Of a DNA stretch of 35,973 bases, positions 21,810 to 34,348 are shown one piece after another. Under the pieces are notes generated by a model. That model ran no database searches. It was given only the letters and a program-made list of their open reading frames with translations, and was not told the origin of the DNA. Numbering within the stretch: the first letter of the stretch is position 1; the number at the start of each line of letters is the position of its first letter. The position numbers and the translations under genes are program-made. The DNA is from Candidatus Kaiserbacteria bacterium RIFCSPLOWO2_01_FULL_51_21 (GTDB lineage Bacteria > Patescibacteriota > Minisyncoccia > Phycocordibacterales > 2-01-FULL-51-21). The stretch covers positions 371 through 36,343 of the forward strand of contig MFLV01000004.1 in the NCBI GenBank assembly GCA_001781435.1, read 5' to 3'.

Positions 21810-22331
21810 TTACTTTGTCTCGCCAAAAAACGTGAGGAGCATTCGGACGCCTTCTTCGACCGAGGTACGGTCAGTTTTTATAACGCACTCCGGATTATCC
21901 GGTATCTCATAAGGACTCTCCTCATGCACGCCGATGAAATTCGCGAGCTCTCCGGCTCGGGCTTTTTTATAGAGCCCTTTGGTGTCGCGCGCCTCGCAGA
22001 CCACAAGCGGACAATCAACAAAAACTTCAACATACTTATCTCCAAGTCTTTGCCGTGTCGATGTCCTGTCTTCACGATACGGGGCGATGACCGGCACCAA
22101 TACGAAATCCGCTTCGGCGCTGTGTTTTTCTGCAAGCTCCGCAATAAGCCGGTTGTTCTCGCGGATATCTTCGCGTGAAAATCCGAGTTTCCGGCCATGC
22201 ATCTGCCGCACTTCATCGCCGTCAAGAAATGTCACACGCTTCCCCTGCGCCTCAAGCTCTTTTTGAAGCGCAAGGGCGAGCGTCGTTTTTCCTGAACCGC
22301 TCAATCCGGTAAACCATACTATCTTTCCCAT
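21810..22331 (-). CDS. cysC: Adenylylsulfate (APS) kinase
   Basis: VWFTGLSGSGKTTLALALQKELEAQGKRVTFLDGDEVRQ P-loop and substrate motifs; LGFSREDIRENNRLIAELA; YVEVFVDCPLVVCEARDTKGLYKKARAGELANFIGVHEESPYEIP. Confidence 0.95.
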   Translation of the reverse strand: MGKIVWFTGLSGSGKTTLALALQKELEAQGKRVTFLDGDEVRQMHGRKLGFSREDIRENNRLIAELAEKHSAEADFVLVPVIAPYREDRTSTRQRLGDKYVEVFVDCPLVVCEARDTKGLYKKARAGELANFIGVHEESPYEIPDNPECVIKTDRTSVEEGVRMLLTFFGETK

Positions 22332-22481: not shown

Positions 22482-22985
22482 ATGGCCATAAGAAAACCCG
22501 GAATCCAGGTTGACATCCCTGGATTCCACAAAATCGACCTGCGGGTCTTGGTGACCGACTACACCGGTACCCATGCCTGCGGCGGTGTGCTCGTGCCCGG
22601 CGCCCGCGAACGCCTCGTGAGACTCTCGGAGCTTTTGGACATCCACGTCCTCACCTCTGACACCTTCGGAACGGTGAAGAAGGAACTCGCGGGTATCCCC
22701 CACACGCTTCGCCTACTCGACGGCAAGTCGCACGACAAGCAGAAGGCGAAGTTCATTTGGGAACTCATTCGCGGTAACCGCATCGCCGCGTTCGGCAACG
22801 GTCGAAACGATCGGCTCATGCTTCGGGCCGTTCGGCAAGCGGGAGGTATCGCCGTCGCCATCGATAACGGCGAGGGATGCGCCGTCGAGGCTCAACGCGA
22901 AGCGAATGTCTTCGTGCATGGGTCGATAGCGGCACTCGACCTCTTGTTCGACACGAATCGCCTCAAGGCGACACTGCGAGCATAG
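22482..22985 (+). CDS. Small HAD-family protein resembling soluble P-type ATPase (P-domain only)
   Basis: LRVLVTDYTGTHACGGVLVPGARERL (HAD motif I region); HVLTSDTFGT; KAKFIWEL; AFGNGRNDRLMLRAVRQAGGIAV (GNGxNDxxML). Confidence 0.8.
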   Translation: MAIRKPGIQVDIPGFHKIDLRVLVTDYTGTHACGGVLVPGARERLVRLSELLDIHVLTSDTFGTVKKELAGIPHTLRLLDGKSHDKQKAKFIWELIRGNRIAAFGNGRNDRLMLRAVRQAGGIAVAIDNGEGCAVEAQREANVFVHGSIAALDLLFDTNRLKATLRA

Positions 22986-23056: not shown

Positions 23057-25294
23057 TTATTCGACGAATACTTTTTCGCCCTTTTTGAGCATCCCGATAA
23101 TGAGCTTCGAGAGCTCGGGACGCATGAACCATTGCGGAAGCATCTTGCCACGCAAGAGCATTTTTCTCGCCTCCGTGCCGCTGATGAGAAGCATGTCCTT
23201 CTGTGCATGACTCCTCCCAGCATCTCCCTCATGCACATGGGATTTCAATTTCTTTGAATAGAATACTTTGTCAAAGCGAACTGGCGTGATACCAATATCT
23301 CCCACGCGGTCAAAAATAGCGTGCGATGCTTTTGGATGATAGAAATCCCCCACCCCAGTATGGTCACGTCCCACGATGAAATGGCTACATCCGAAATTCT
23401 TCCGGCACAGTGCCGTAAAAAGCGCTTCGCGCGGTCCAGCATAGCGCGAAAAGGTAGCATACGTTCCGAATACCACCGTTTCTTTCGGGTAACAGATGCG
23501 CATCAGTTTTTCGTAACTTTGAACGATAGCCGCCGCTTCAAAGTCCCCCGACTTCTTTTTGCCGATAACCGGATGAATGAAGAGGCCGTCCGCGCCCGTT
23601 TTTCGAAGCGCCTCGAGCTGAATGAACTCGTGCCCCCGATGCGGAACATTGCGGGTGTGGAACCCGACCACCGTCCTCCATCCGCGATCTTCAAAAAGAC
23701 GACGTGCCTGCCGCGGAGTCAGCTCATACTGTTTATGCGAAGAGGGGCGGCGCCGAAACACCTTGATACCTCCGGCAAGAAATACCGGGCCCATAGCCTC
23801 TACCGCACGGACACCGGGATGTTTTTCGTCCGTGGTTTCATACAGCGTGCGCGCATATTCCTCCTTGTTGACCGAGTATTTCTCTTTGAGAGAAAACATG
23901 CCAAATGGCACTCCTTCTTTGTCCGTGAGAAGTATTTTTTTTCCTACCTTGAGTGGAGCGGCAACCTCTTTTGAAACATCGAGCACAATTGGGAGCGGCC
24001 AAACAATGCCATCTTTGAGACGAAGGGAATTAAGCACTGACTCCACATCCCTTTTCCCCATGAAGCCCGTAAGCGGGCTGAAGGTCCCGATGGCAATCTG
24101 CTCGGCGTCCATATACTGCTCATCCGAGAGTTTAATCTTTAGGAGCCGGGAAAACTCCTTTTTTTGAGGCACTTCGATGAGCCCATTCACCAACTTGCCT
24201 CCATGCGGTTCAACGAGTGAGTCTCCTATGCTTTCCACATCGAGATAGCTTTGTGCAATAGGCATTCCCTGCGATTTTCCACGGCCGTATTTCTTCGTGT
24301 GTTCGATAATACGATTCAGCATATTGATGCAGGCAATCGGGTTTTTCCCGACGGCAGTTTCCGCCGCGAGCGTTACGCCATACGCTCCTTCAAGGAGCGT
24401 ATCCACAATGTCGTGCACCTCTGCCCGCGTCGGTTTTGACTTCTCAACCATCGTTTCCAAGAGATTGGTTGCCACAAAGACACCCTTCCCTGTTTTTGCC
24501 GCCTCCTGAAGGATAAGTTTCTGCATGAACGGAATGCGCTCAATCGGTATCTCTTTGCTCAAATCTCCGCGGTCGATTAAAAGAAAGTCCGATGCGGCAA
24601 TGATGCCTTTAAGATTTTGCAAACCATCAATACACTCAATCTTTGAAATAATCTTCATCTTGCCCTTAGTCGTCTTGCGAACTTCCCGAACCGCGGCACC
24701 CGATCGCATAAAGGAAGCGGCAATGTATTGAACCCCTTCGGCAAGCGCGATTTTAATCGCCCGTTTATCTTTGGGAGAGAGTGTCGGAAGGTCGTAGTGT
24801 TTGTCGGCAAGCGCCGATTGGACGACAACGCCCTTATTGTTGCCTAAAAGACCTCCGGCAATGACTTGCGCTACGACCTTTCCCTGACGAACCTTGTTCA
24901 CATCATGTATGCGCAATATAAGCGAGTCAAAATCGCAGTACACGATGTCGCCGACTTCAAGCTGTTTGAGAATTTCACGCGGGCGGATGGTGAGAAGCGA
25001 GCCATTACCGACGATTTCCTTGTTCGTGAGCGTCACCAGCGCTCCTTCTTCGAAATAGTGCGGTGCATTTTTGAGTACGCCGGTGCGTATTTGAGAGCCC
25101 TCGGTGTCAAGCACGAACGGAATGCCTATTTTTTTCGCCATCCGCATAAAATGCCGCTGGTCGGCAAGACTGGAGTGCGACATGTTAACCCGCACAAAAT
25201 CAACACCCTTGCTTTTTATGGTGCGCACCATCTCCTCCGTATTCGTCGACGGTCCGAGAGTTACGATGATCTTTGTTTTTTCCTGCTTCTTCAT
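23057..25294 (-). CDS. Fusion protein: N-terminal pyruvate kinase barrel (about aa 1-345) + C-terminal ATP sulfurylase/sulfate adenylyltransferase (about aa 355-745)
   Basis: PK: KTKIIVTLGPSTNTEEMV, FVRVNMSHSS, FVLDTEGSQIRTG, MKIISKIECIDGL, DRGDLSKEIPIERIPFMQK, VATNLLETMVEKSKPTRAEVHDI, AETAVGKNP. Sat: GTFSPLTGFMG, TVVGFHTRNVPHRGHEFIQLEAL, FSRYAGPREALFTALCRKNFGCSHFIVGRDHTGVGDFY. One uninterrupted frame of 745 codons. Confidence 0.92.
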   Translation of the reverse strand: MKKQEKTKIIVTLGPSTNTEEMVRTIKSKGVDFVRVNMSHSSLADQRHFMRMAKKIGIPFVLDTEGSQIRTGVLKNAPHYFEEGALVTLTNKEIVGNGSLLTIRPREILKQLEVGDIVYCDFDSLILRIHDVNKVRQGKVVAQVIAGGLLGNNKGVVVQSALADKHYDLPTLSPKDKRAIKIALAEGVQYIAASFMRSGAAVREVRKTTKGKMKIISKIECIDGLQNLKGIIAASDFLLIDRGDLSKEIPIERIPFMQKLILQEAAKTGKGVFVATNLLETMVEKSKPTRAEVHDIVDTLLEGAYGVTLAAETAVGKNPIACINMLNRIIEHTKKYGRGKSQGMPIAQSYLDVESIGDSLVEPHGGKLVNGLIEVPQKKEFSRLLKIKLSDEQYMDAEQIAIGTFSPLTGFMGKRDVESVLNSLRLKDGIVWPLPIVLDVSKEVAAPLKVGKKILLTDKEGVPFGMFSLKEKYSVNKEEYARTLYETTDEKHPGVRAVEAMGPVFLAGGIKVFRRRPSSHKQYELTPRQARRLFEDRGWRTVVGFHTRNVPHRGHEFIQLEALRKTGADGLFIHPVIGKKKSGDFEAAAIVQSYEKLMRICYPKETVVFGTYATFSRYAGPREALFTALCRKNFGCSHFIVGRDHTGVGDFYHPKASHAIFDRVGDIGITPVRFDKVFYSKKLKSHVHEGDAGRSHAQKDMLLISGTEARKMLLRGKMLPQWFMRPELSKLIIGMLKKGEKVFVE

Positions 25295-25303
25295 AGCTCG
25301 ATG

Positions 25304-26257
25304 TTACGAAGTGCGTACGTGGTATTTCTCGAGAACTCCTCGCTCAAGCGGGGCTATTGAAGCATCGATGACATTTGCCAATTCCATGCTTATATAATTT
25401 TTCCAATCGCCGACAATACCTTTTCGCATCGGGTTCACGTCGTAGAGGGTATTTCCCGGATCTTGAAGATCCTGCCGCCACGACCCTTCCTCGCCCCGTT
25501 CCCGCCCGTGCCCTCTTGAGTGCCGCTTTGTCATTTCCTTGAATGAACCCTTCGTGAGCATCTCCCTCGCGATATCAGGCGGCGCCTCAAAACCGAGATA
25601 CGAGCAGAGTCCTTCTATCGTTTTGAGCGGGCTCTCGGTCATCCCCTCATAGCTCGTGCAGTAGAGAGACCCATTGTAGCGCAGAAGCGCCTCGTATTCT
25701 TTTTTAACCCGCTCTTCAATATACTCGAGCGCAAAGGCCTCCGTAATAGGTCCTTCCTCTTTCCGCCGTTTGCTTACCAAACTGAAATGCCACGAGGTGA
25801 CGCGATCCTTCGGATCGCGAAGCACACAGATCTTCTTGATGTCCGGGTAAAGCGAATCAATGAACCCGAGGTGAAACACATAGGCGGGTGTAGATTCCCC
25901 GACTATGTTCTTGTTTCCGCGCTGCTCGTCGCACAGGTTACTGTAGCGCTCAACCATCACCTTGTAGAATTCCTGTTTCGGAAGCGTCTGCGCAAGCGGT
26001 ACGAGGTCGGCAAACACTTCGCCGTACTTCGTGAGATAATCCGAGAGCGGGCGCGCAAAATTCTCGAGGTTCCCCTGCTCAATACTGGCAAGGGTGTTGA
26101 AAAAATGGACCTCCCCCACCCTCTCTTCCCCTTTGGGTCCTTCAAACGGCAAGGTCGGGAAGCTCGCGATCTCCGGATGACCATTGAGTACGGCAGAAAC
26201 CCAGAGCGTACCGCTTCGCTGCATTCCCACTATCAAAAAATCAGGTCGTAATGTCAT
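25304..26257 (-). CDS. PAPS-dependent sulfotransferase
   Basis: DFLIVGMQRSGTLWVSAVLNGHPEI (5'-PSB loop), KICVLRDPKDRVTSWHFS (3'-PB), RKGIVGDWKNYIS (C-terminal RKGxxGDWK). Confidence 0.92.
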   Translation of the reverse strand: MTLRPDFLIVGMQRSGTLWVSAVLNGHPEIASFPTLPFEGPKGEERVGEVHFFNTLASIEQGNLENFARPLSDYLTKYGEVFADLVPLAQTLPKQEFYKVMVERYSNLCDEQRGNKNIVGESTPAYVFHLGFIDSLYPDIKKICVLRDPKDRVTSWHFSLVSKRRKEEGPITEAFALEYIEERVKKEYEALLRYNGSLYCTSYEGMTESPLKTIEGLCSYLGFEAPPDIAREMLTKGSFKEMTKRHSRGHGRERGEEGSWRQDLQDPGNTLYDVNPMRKGIVGDWKNYISMELANVIDASIAPLERGVLEKYHVRTS

Positions 26258-31486: not shown

Positions 31487-32869
31487 CTACCGCGCCTCCA
31501 TGAAATTAAGGAGTGACCCTGCGATCCGCTTGCCCGACTGGCCATCGTGTTTGTAGCATTGCTCAGAAACAATCCGCGCTCTTCCCTCGCGGTCAAGCTC
31601 GGGGTGCTCGAGATAGCGATTGATAGCGGCAACAAGCTCATCGAAGGTCCAGGCGATCGAGACGCCACCGCTTTTGACGATGTACTGATAGTGCGCGTGG
31701 TACTTGCTAAATTTTCTTCGGACACTTTTCCAAAACGGCCGCTTCTCCCATCCGTCGAATGCAATATTGATGGTCGGCTTGTCGAAGAGAGCGGCATCGA
31801 TGCTTATTGACGAAGTCGTCGTGATAATCACGGCGGCATGAAATATCGTGTCAGCCAAGTGTTCCATGTCTTTCTCTAAAATCTCCGAGAAGCTGCCCGC
31901 ACCGGTCGAAAGAGTGGTTTTTGAGTCATCAACCATAATCTGTTTGTGGACGGGAATATTCTTTAATTCAGTTTTTTCGGTGGGATGCTGGCGGAAGATA
32001 ACCATGAGGTCGGAGGGCAGTCGCCCCTCATCGAAAGCGCGGGCAAGCAGGGTGAGTGTCTGCCATTCGGTTTGATTTGCCGTGCTCCCCTGCGAAGTGA
32101 AAAGGACAATGCGTTTCTTCAGGTCTACGGAGAGACGCTTGTAAAGCTCCTCTCGGGTTGCGCGCGGATTAGTCACATAGAAATCGTGCTGGGGTATCCC
32201 GGAGATAAAAATATTTTGCTTCCGTACGTCAAGATACTTGACTGCCTCACCGGCAATTATCTTATTGTGGCAGATAAGCAATTCCGGAAGAATTCTAAAC
32301 GGATATTTCGCATAGGTAATGTTATCCCATGAATTAACCATGCCCGTCGTCTTTACACCGCTTCGCTTCGCATGGCGCAGGAGCGAACGATCAAGGGATG
32401 CAGCGACATTCGACGCAAAAACCATGTCCGGTCGGTACCGGTCAAAATAGCGCAGAAGTCGAGTGTCCGACACCAAGCGGTAATCCAGTGCCCGCGCAAG
32501 CGAACGAAGTGCCTGTGTGTGGCCGAAAAGAGCAAGCGCGGTTCGCGACAGAATATAGCGCACCGGCTGCCGACGTTCGTACCAGTACCCAAGTTTCTTG
32601 AGAAATCGCCCCGTCGTACTGTCAACGTAGTAGAGCGAAAGGCTGTTGAAGAAGGAATCCAATCGAGATACGAATTCTTGCTTAAACTCAACTCCTTCAA
32701 AGATGAGGTTCGGCAATTGAAATTCTTCGCGGTAATAGGCAAGCTTTAAGGCGGGTACCAACACCACCACGCGAACGTCTTTTGTCGCAAGAAGCGTTTT
32801 CAAAACATCGGTGCGAAGGATATTGCGCGCCTGCTGGCGCCCTGAAATGGCAACGAGGACCGTTCTCAT
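31487..32869 (-). CDS. GT-B-like putative transferase, copy 2
   Basis: GVKTTGMVNSWDNITYAKYPFRILPELLICHNKIIAGEAVKYLDVRKQNIFISGIPQHDFY; IITTTSSISIDAALFDKPTINIAFDGWEKRPF. Confidence 0.65.
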   Translation of the reverse strand: MRTVLVAISGRQQARNILRTDVLKTLLATKDVRVVVLVPALKLAYYREEFQLPNLIFEGVEFKQEFVSRLDSFFNSLSLYYVDSTTGRFLKKLGYWYERRQPVRYILSRTALALFGHTQALRSLARALDYRLVSDTRLLRYFDRYRPDMVFASNVAASLDRSLLRHAKRSGVKTTGMVNSWDNITYAKYPFRILPELLICHNKIIAGEAVKYLDVRKQNIFISGIPQHDFYVTNPRATREELYKRLSVDLKKRIVLFTSQGSTANQTEWQTLTLLARAFDEGRLPSDLMVIFRQHPTEKTELKNIPVHKQIMVDDSKTTLSTGAGSFSEILEKDMEHLADTIFHAAVIITTTSSISIDAALFDKPTINIAFDGWEKRPFWKSVRRKFSKYHAHYQYIVKSGGVSIAWTFDELVAAINRYLEHPELDREGRARIVSEQCYKHDGQSGKRIAGSLLNFMEAR

Positions 32870-32872
32870 ATT

Positions 32873-34246
32873 TTACACAACCTTCCCTTCCCGTTTCAAT
32901 ATTTCTCCGATAAAGCCGATGTTGCGCTTGTAGGAATAGCCATCTGCGGGCGCGACGAATTTCTTGACCATTGCCGTTCTTGCTGCCCTATCGCGCGCCG
33001 GGTCCTTGAGATAGTCATTGATGAAAAGGAGAACATCCTCCATGCGCATAGCAACTCGCGATGCTCCGGTTTCAACGATCGGCGCGTAGTGCGGAAACAT
33101 GAGGATGTCGCTTGAAATGCCCGCAAAACCAATGTTGATAACCGGTTTATCGAAGATAAACGCCTCAAGAGAAAAGGTGGAGGCGAAGTTAATGCAAATG
33201 TCGGTGTGTCGAATGGAGTCCTTTTTTATCACCCAGTCAGCTTCTTCCGTTTCTACGTTGTTCTTACTGCTCACGGTGTTTGCTTTCACTGTACCAGCAA
33301 GCCCCAGATAAAGGTTCGGCACTCCCATAAATTCCGCGTAGTCCTCTGGTTTATCAAGCGGATGCATCCGGATAAAAAAATTGAGCGGTTCAGCAAAGAC
33401 ACCCTCTTTTTGCCAATGTATGAACGAACGAATGATATCTCGGTGGAAATTCAGATGAGCGCGGGAAGCAAAGAGCAGAGTCTTTCGGTTCGGGTCAAGG
33501 CCCTTCGAGGAAAGAAAGGTGGAGCGCTCCTCTTCGCCCTTAAGCGGGCGGAAGTATGAATCAAAACGAAGCGTCCCGGAGACAAACAGCCGATCGTCCG
33601 GATAATTGTGAAGTTCTCGAGCCGCTTCCCGTTGAAATTCGTTCCAACAGATAAGATATTTCGTTTTCCGAACATGCCGTGGATAGGTCGTCAGGTTATC
33701 CCACGAAAAATCGAAAGCGACCGTCGGCAGTTTCAAACGATGAGCGCAGGCAATAACATATGGCTCAACCGGCTTTACCCCCGGGGAGGCCACCATGATG
33801 AGGGCCGGATGATGCCGTTCCACTTGCTTTTTGAACCAGGAAAAGTTCGGCATCGTATAACGCTCAATAAACGAGAAAAAATCGGTGGAGAAGAGATTTT
33901 TCGATACAAACTGCATAACAACGCGTAAGAGCCGACGACGTTTATCCGCTTTTCGTGCAATGGCATTGCGCCAACGAACTGCCGGATTATCTTCATACCG
34001 CCGTATCAGCTCGGGACGAAGCAGCCAGTCGATGAGCGTCCAGTACTTTCCGCTCGGATCAAATATTCCCTGGTAGATGACATTCGGGTGTTTGTAGTAG
34101 CTTGACGCGTCAATCTCAAGCGAGGAATTCTTGGTCGGCAGAAATACGACCACTCTATATTTTCCCGCGAGTTCCTTGATGTACTCAGTATGGAGCACAT
34201 CGGAGATATGGAGTCGCGTGGGAAGCACCAGAAAAAGTGTTTTCAT
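32873..34246 (-). CDS. GT-B-like putative transferase, copy 3
   Basis: LPTVAFDFSWDNLTTYPRHVRKTKYLICWNEFQREAARELHNYPDDRLFVSGTLRFDSYF; ICINFASTFSLEAFIFDKPVINIGFAG. Start MKTLFLVLPTRLH at 34246 preferred. Confidence 0.65.
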   Translation of the reverse strand: MKTLFLVLPTRLHISDVLHTEYIKELAGKYRVVVFLPTKNSSLEIDASSYYKHPNVIYQGIFDPSGKYWTLIDWLLRPELIRRYEDNPAVRWRNAIARKADKRRRLLRVVMQFVSKNLFSTDFFSFIERYTMPNFSWFKKQVERHHPALIMVASPGVKPVEPYVIACAHRLKLPTVAFDFSWDNLTTYPRHVRKTKYLICWNEFQREAARELHNYPDDRLFVSGTLRFDSYFRPLKGEEERSTFLSSKGLDPNRKTLLFASRAHLNFHRDIIRSFIHWQKEGVFAEPLNFFIRMHPLDKPEDYAEFMGVPNLYLGLAGTVKANTVSSKNNVETEEADWVIKKDSIRHTDICINFASTFSLEAFIFDKPVINIGFAGISSDILMFPHYAPIVETGASRVAMRMEDVLLFINDYLKDPARDRAARTAMVKKFVAPADGYSYKRNIGFIGEILKREGKVV

Positions 34247-34256
34247 AATGGTCATT

Positions 34257-34265
34257 ACTATAACA
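34257..34265 (-). promoter_or_regulatory. Extended -10 TGTTATAGT, 10 nt upstream of the ATG
   Basis: Minus strand GTTTGTTATAGTAATGACCATTATG. Confidence 0.55.
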
Positions 34266-34348
34266 AACAATATCTCTAATGGTTCGTTACTCTAAATGAA
34301 AGAAAGGCGCCCAGCGTGAAAGCTAGGCATCTAGTACTTGCACCGGTG

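Follow-up and report, generated by a model that had tools for sequence, protein, structure and literature searches.

A widespread and apparently undescribed fusion of pyruvate kinase and ATP sulfurylase with a probable role in PAPS synthesis

The stretch of DNA analysed (35,973 nucleotides of contig MFLV01000004.1 of Candidatus Kaiserbacteria bacterium RIFCSPLOWO2_01_FULL_51_21; further referred to as the window) contains a genuine fusion of pyruvate kinase (PK) and ATP sulfurylase (Sat), and this PK-Sat architecture is real, widespread and apparently undescribed. Most likely, with a probability of about 0.7, it forms the part of a PAPS synthase that activates sulfate and carries its own module for recycling ATP at the expense of PEP.

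Architecture and distribution of the fusion

The fusion gene and its domains are located in the window as follows.

23057..25294, minus strand, start codon at 25294: PK-Sat fusion gene, 745 aa (open reading frame, Pfam, NCBIfam, AlphaFold2, same architecture in 80 loci)
24329..25282, minus strand: pyruvate kinase barrel and B domain, aa 5-322 (PF00224, E. coli PykF residue mapping, conservation across 81 fusions)
23753..24211, minus strand: PUA-like N-terminal domain of ATP sulfurylase, aa 362-514 (PF14306, PUA_2)
23099..23731, minus strand: ATP sulfurylase catalytic domain, aa 522-732, with the motifs HTRNVPHRGHE and GRDHTG (PF01747, TIGR00339, comparison with unfused Sats)

A preliminary description of this DNA, made from the sequence alone, had claimed one unbroken frame of 745 codons at positions 23057-25294. 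This frame was present, its strand, left unstated at the time, being the minus strand, and all motifs listed there were found in the protein. The claimed order of domains, namely a PK region followed by a full Sat that replaces the PK C-terminal domain, was borne out by Pfam: PF00224 matched over the barrel (227 bits; curated cut-off 30), no match with the C-terminal allosteric domain of PK (PF02887) was found in the window protein, and Sat occupied its place (PF01747, 245 bits; PUA_2, PF14306, 157 bits). Among the NCBIfam models, TIGR00339 (342.6 versus a cut-off of 322.95) and PRK04149 (425 versus 387) recognised the protein, and the whole-protein model pyruv_kin scored below its cut-off (283.4 versus 306.4) because the PK C-terminal domain is missing. 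Structure prediction, which had been proposed as a check, yielded an AlphaFold2 model (mean pLDDT 93.3, pTM 0.87) that was confident throughout except for a linker at about residues 340-360. Its halves separately matched solved structures of the two families, namely ATP sulfurylase 8a8d and pyruvate kinases such as 4yng, and no chain combining both was present among the best 50 PDB matches listed.

Genome searches revealed the fusion of PK and ATP sulfurylase to be widespread, with at least 80 genomes of bacteria and archaea possessing it. When each GTDB species was scanned through a single genome, 164 relatives were confirmed, from which 80 loci were kept, all of them PK-Sat fusions in a single frame. 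These span 27 named NCBI phyla, several of which are subdivisions of the Patescibacteria, and the hosts include DPANN archaea (Woesearchaeota and Micrarchaeota-type archaea) as well as Omnitrophota, Elusimicrobiota, Nitrospinota, Myxococcota and Pseudomonadota. The fusion also occurs in the isolates Flavobacterium sp. Leaf82 and Flexibacter sp. ATCC 35103 and on megaplasmids of Sinorhizobium chiapasense and Ensifer adhaerens; binning errors are possible in single metagenome-assembled genomes, although isolates carry the fusion too. Fourteen of the 80 kept open reading frames have the length of a PK-Sat-CysC protein, which a family match confirmed for Flavobacterium Leaf82. Furthermore, searches of 98, 397 and 384 genomes retrieved six additional PK fusions, five of them PK-Sat (G021, G028, G099, G162 and G726, with G028 and G726 being PK-Sat-CysC) and one in which PK is joined directly to APS kinase (PK-CysC; genome G200, locus L036). 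Family searches of the G200 genome found neither Sat nor a PF01507 protein. A full-length PK-Sat fusion was not found in phages.

A misassembly or frameshift joining two genes had been named as a condition that would overturn the fusion, and the draft status of the window's genome (28 contigs) could speak for it. The same single-frame fusion, however, occurs in 80 independent loci, among them isolate genomes and two completely sequenced Sinorhizobium/Ensifer plasmids. With a single open reading frame in all 80 kept loci, neither chance nor a frameshift nor a chimeric join in the assembly can account for the fusion, and an assembly artefact was therefore rejected, its residual likelihood being negligible.

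Two side observations concern related genes. Other Patescibacteria (L005, L037-L039 and L041-L044) possess Sat-CysC fusions of the ordinary kind, in which PK is missing; PAPS supply is thus solved in more than one way within this group. In addition, a PK-barrel-like gene that matches the second half of the query only (about 171-339; open frames of 271-486 aa) was retrieved at G017:C38, G039:C9, G082:C4, G086:C2, G087:C27, G089:C11 and G090:C13. In several relatives its neighbour is a divergent enolase gene, and it is possibly a minimal pyruvate kinase.

Active sites and evolutionary history

E. coli PykF (PF00224) has the barrel, the B domain and the catalytic residues in common with the fused PK, about a third of the residues being identical; the latter differs in the lack of a C-terminal regulatory domain, in Q68, D241 and N277, and in its junction to Sat. 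The catalytic residues of the window PK are R35, N37, S39, D63, R70, K218, E220, D244 and T276, and the protein is identical to PykF at R32, N34, S36, H37, D66, T67, R73, K156, D174, K220, E222, R244, G245, D246 and T278. That the PK active site is kept, earlier judged by eye, thus held in the alignment. Indeed, of the residues that serve Mg, PEP and phosphoryl transfer, nearly all are invariant where covered in 81 fusions, with T276 being Ser in five of these.

Some positions depart from the standard in the whole family. Q68 is found in 78 of 78 fusions, where other PKs have E or K, a position tied to K+ dependence. D241 replaces the Ala before RGD in 81 of 81 fusions, and N277 replaces Gln family-wide. 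The claim that the Sat motifs are kept stood in part: HTRNVPHRGHE is present, and inspection for QxRNxxHxxH and GRDHxG showed RN, both His residues and GRDH to be retained in the fusions, but H546 replaces the standard Gln of QTRN in 82 of 82 fusions, as opposed to Gln in 15 correctly read unfused Sats. Moreover, GRDHA has become GRDHT in most fusions; both this position and that of H546 touch sulfate in known Sat structures. Judged by these residues, neither active site is fully standard, and the substitutions Q68, D241 and H546 could change the cofactor or substrate.

This raises the question of whether the PK domain acts as a phosphotransferase with an altered substrate or cation need, or as a PEP/ADP sensor gating Sat. 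The family-wide departures next to retained catalytic residues, the H546 substitution and the failure to find known PEP-making enzymes in the window's genome would all suit such a role. In contrast, every residue needed for Mg, the PEP phosphate and ADP phosphoryl transfer is retained, the PK domain is fused to or located beside an ADP-making APS kinase, and glycolysis is usual in the phyla of many fusion members, which makes this alternative improbable, albeit the strongest one. Still less likely, indeed very unlikely, is a PK part without activity that serves structure or oligomerisation in the place of a different partner of Sat. Such a module would agree with the missing PK C-terminal domain, and it has a parallel in fungal Sat, in which an inactive APS-kinase-like domain acts as a regulator; yet the catalytic residues are nearly all invariant over 38-66% identity and dozens of lineages, unlike those of a decayed domain.

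In phylogenetic analysis, the fused PKs, including PK-CysC, formed one group versus the sampled canonical PKs (100 SH-aLRT; misread control open reading frame L029 excluded), as did the fused Sats versus unfused Sats (support of 99; control L145, a wrong-frame reading, discounted). The canonical PK set consisted mostly of one order plus E. coli PykF, and because of this narrow sampling the trees point to a single origin but do not prove it. The PK tree shows the lineages intermixed, as expected from gene transfer. The PK-CysC protein of G200 grouped beside the window protein and its closest relative (support of 83), a placement suggestive of a loss of the Sat part.

Gene neighbourhood and PEP supply

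The genes next to the fusion in the window are the following.

21810..22331, minus strand: separate APS kinase (CysC), downstream of the fusion (PF01583, 176 bits; TIGR00455)
22482..22985, plus strand: weakly HAD-hydrolase-like open reading frame between PK-Sat and CysC (below the Pfam cut-off)
25304..26257, minus strand: sulfotransferase directly upstream of the fusion, with a gap of 10 bp (PF00685, 82 bits; PF13469, 70 bits)

The window thereby displays the arrangement of a PAPS synthase operon, with an APS kinase fused or adjacent and a sulfotransferase nearby. The tie of the fusion to these two functions extends across the family, as 74 of the 80 loci have CysC, either fused or nearby, or a sulfotransferase at a distance of up to 10 kb. 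CysC is fused or at most 10 kb away in 59 loci, a sulfotransferase lies within 10 kb in 50, and 37 CysC genes begin no more than 60 bp from the fusion. Among the genes immediately next to the fusion, the most frequent Pfam family is sulfotransferase, and a CysQ-type phosphatase occurs in 11 of the 80 loci. PAPS_reduct (PF01507) was absent from all seven PK-fusion genomes searched (six PK-Sat, one PK-CysC), indicating that in these genomes the product serves sulfation and not cysteine synthesis; a role in sulfate reduction was rejected for them. Similarly, no match with a CysD subunit (PF01507 superfamily) was found in the window's genome, which hence does not fit the CysDN type.

Near the fusion, the window further contains three NeuB genes, two UDP-GlcNAc 2-epimerases and three cytidylyltransferases, a combination indicating that this cluster makes nonulosonic acids. 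Two adjacent proteins at 31487-34270 (minus strand), one of them below the cut-off, resemble the CDP-glycerol glycerophosphotransferase family.

A different context was encountered in Flavobacterium Leaf82 (PK-Sat-CysC) and Flexibacter ATCC 35103 (L087 and L088), where the trifunctional gene follows NRPS modules and is also preceded by an SbnA-like diaminopropionate gene. One report names Flexibacter ATCC 35103 as the producer for a monobactam cluster (PMC9248904), and another describes, for the related sulfazecin pathway, monobactam N-sulfonation by PAPS and an APS kinase built into the NRPS (PMC11298585). The small gene directly before the fusion in this monobactam-type cluster had no Pfam match; its position and N-terminal motif allow the guess that it encodes a sulfotransferase.

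The window's genome (629 kb, 92% complete) belongs to an order whose sampled members have small Patescibacteria-type genomes. The fusion is the sole PK and the sole Sat found in it; a second stand-alone pyk, the search for which had been advised, was not encountered. Neither were enolase, PPDK/PEP synthase or PEP carboxykinase found by family searches of this genome, and about half of the sampled order is without enolase. A host, or an enzyme that escaped recognition, may supply the PEP, which the three NeuB enzymes need as well. The earlier suggestion that sulfate activation and NeuB share PEP does not apply in general, as NeuB lies within 10 kb in 19 of the 80 loci, and that none of these PEP-making enzymes was found in the window's genome counts against it too.

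Six of seven searched genomes have no PK other than the fusion, which could also mean that the glycolytic PK of the cell was merely joined to Sat without functional coupling. The genomes in which the fusion is the only PK are, however, without enolase, and therefore offer no lower glycolysis for the fused PK to serve, while G099 possesses separate strong PKs in addition to the fusion. Moreover, the fused PKs form a clade distinct from the sampled canonical ones and accompany sulfation genes, not glycolysis genes. Such an uncoupled glycolytic enzyme is accordingly considered unlikely.

Proposed function and comparison with known systems

The mechanism that we infer from the observed architecture, clade, conservation of catalytic residues and neighbourhood concerns PAPS synthesis with ATP recycling. 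Sat would convert ATP and sulfate into APS and PPi, after which APS kinase, separate in the window but joined to PK-Sat in one polypeptide in at least 14 relatives, would convert APS and ATP into PAPS and ADP. The PK domain, devoid of its regulatory C-terminal domain, would use PEP to turn this ADP into ATP, thereby removing ADP that would otherwise accumulate and inhibit APS kinase, and adding the energy of PEP to the unfavourable sulfate-activation pathway. PAPS would be consumed by the neighbouring sulfotransferase, the acceptor most likely being a surface glycan containing nonulosonic acid. As Sat gives AMP-sulfate and PPi, not ADP, the PK would act directly only on ADP from APS kinase, and any pull on Sat would be indirect. 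Hence, of the earlier proposal, ATP recycling at the site of sulfate activation stands as the most likely role, and the pull on Sat needs to be read as indirect. The PK-CysC protein of G200 unites exactly the pair where ADP is made. According to PMC9885120, human PAPSS1 without a PK/PEP system makes almost no PAPS, which is attributed there to an enzyme-APS-ADP dead-end complex. The fusion is therefore in keeping with a role in clearing ADP and regenerating ATP where PAPS is made. On the other hand, a stand-alone PK would recycle ADP too, and the unsuccessful search for PEP-making enzymes in the window's genome, the substitutions in both active sites and the failure to find Sat in G200 also speak against this reading.

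Several known systems resemble PK-Sat in part. The Aquifex 2gks-type Sat/APS kinase (PRK05537) and animal PAPS synthase make PAPS with the same Sat and APS kinase families, which sometimes share one chain in the fusion family as well, like in the bifunctional PRK05537 type. They are, however, without PK, whereas PK-Sat carries PK at its N-terminus and has a Sat of a separate clade, with HTRN instead of QTRN. A second parallel is the APS kinase-Sat-pyrophosphatase of diatoms, haptophytes and Phytophthora, in which, according to PMC4220642, a helper domain on Sat is thought to pull the reaction; this helper removes PPi, whereas that of PK-Sat would turn ADP into ATP at the cost of PEP. Thirdly, the GTPase-coupled ATP sulfurylase CysD-CysN (PMC4373884) likewise spends a second high-energy phosphate compound on sulfate activation, but this is GTP instead of PEP, and its Sat belongs to an unrelated fold family, no PF01507 domain being present in PK-Sat. 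Lastly, coupled PAPS synthesis in vitro with added PK and PEP (PMC9885120, PMC2834601) employs the same enzyme set of Sat, APS kinase and PK, there as a mixture of separate purified enzymes, as opposed to one chain in PK-Sat. In line with the preliminary description, which knew of no characterised PK-Sat fusion, no published description was recognised among the open-access papers searched, which were judged mainly from titles and abstracts.

Sulfate activation is among the least favourable steps of metabolism, and it has long been asked how its cost is met. Sulfate activation tied to PEP by a naturally occurring enzyme would, if true, be a new answer to this question and a natural counterpart of the PAPS recipe of chemists; a single protein of this kind could supply PAPS for the production of sulfated sugars and drugs. 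It is rather likely that PEP, through the fused PK, constitutes a third payment for sulfate activation, in addition to the hydrolysis of PPi and to GTP (CysDN), and that in bacteria and DPANN archaea a widely transferred family drives the synthesis of PAPS used on surface glycans and for sulfonated natural products. The fusion may also serve to trace sulfated glycans of the cell surface in Patescibacteria, DPANN archaea and further poorly known microbes, in which sulfation has hardly been considered.
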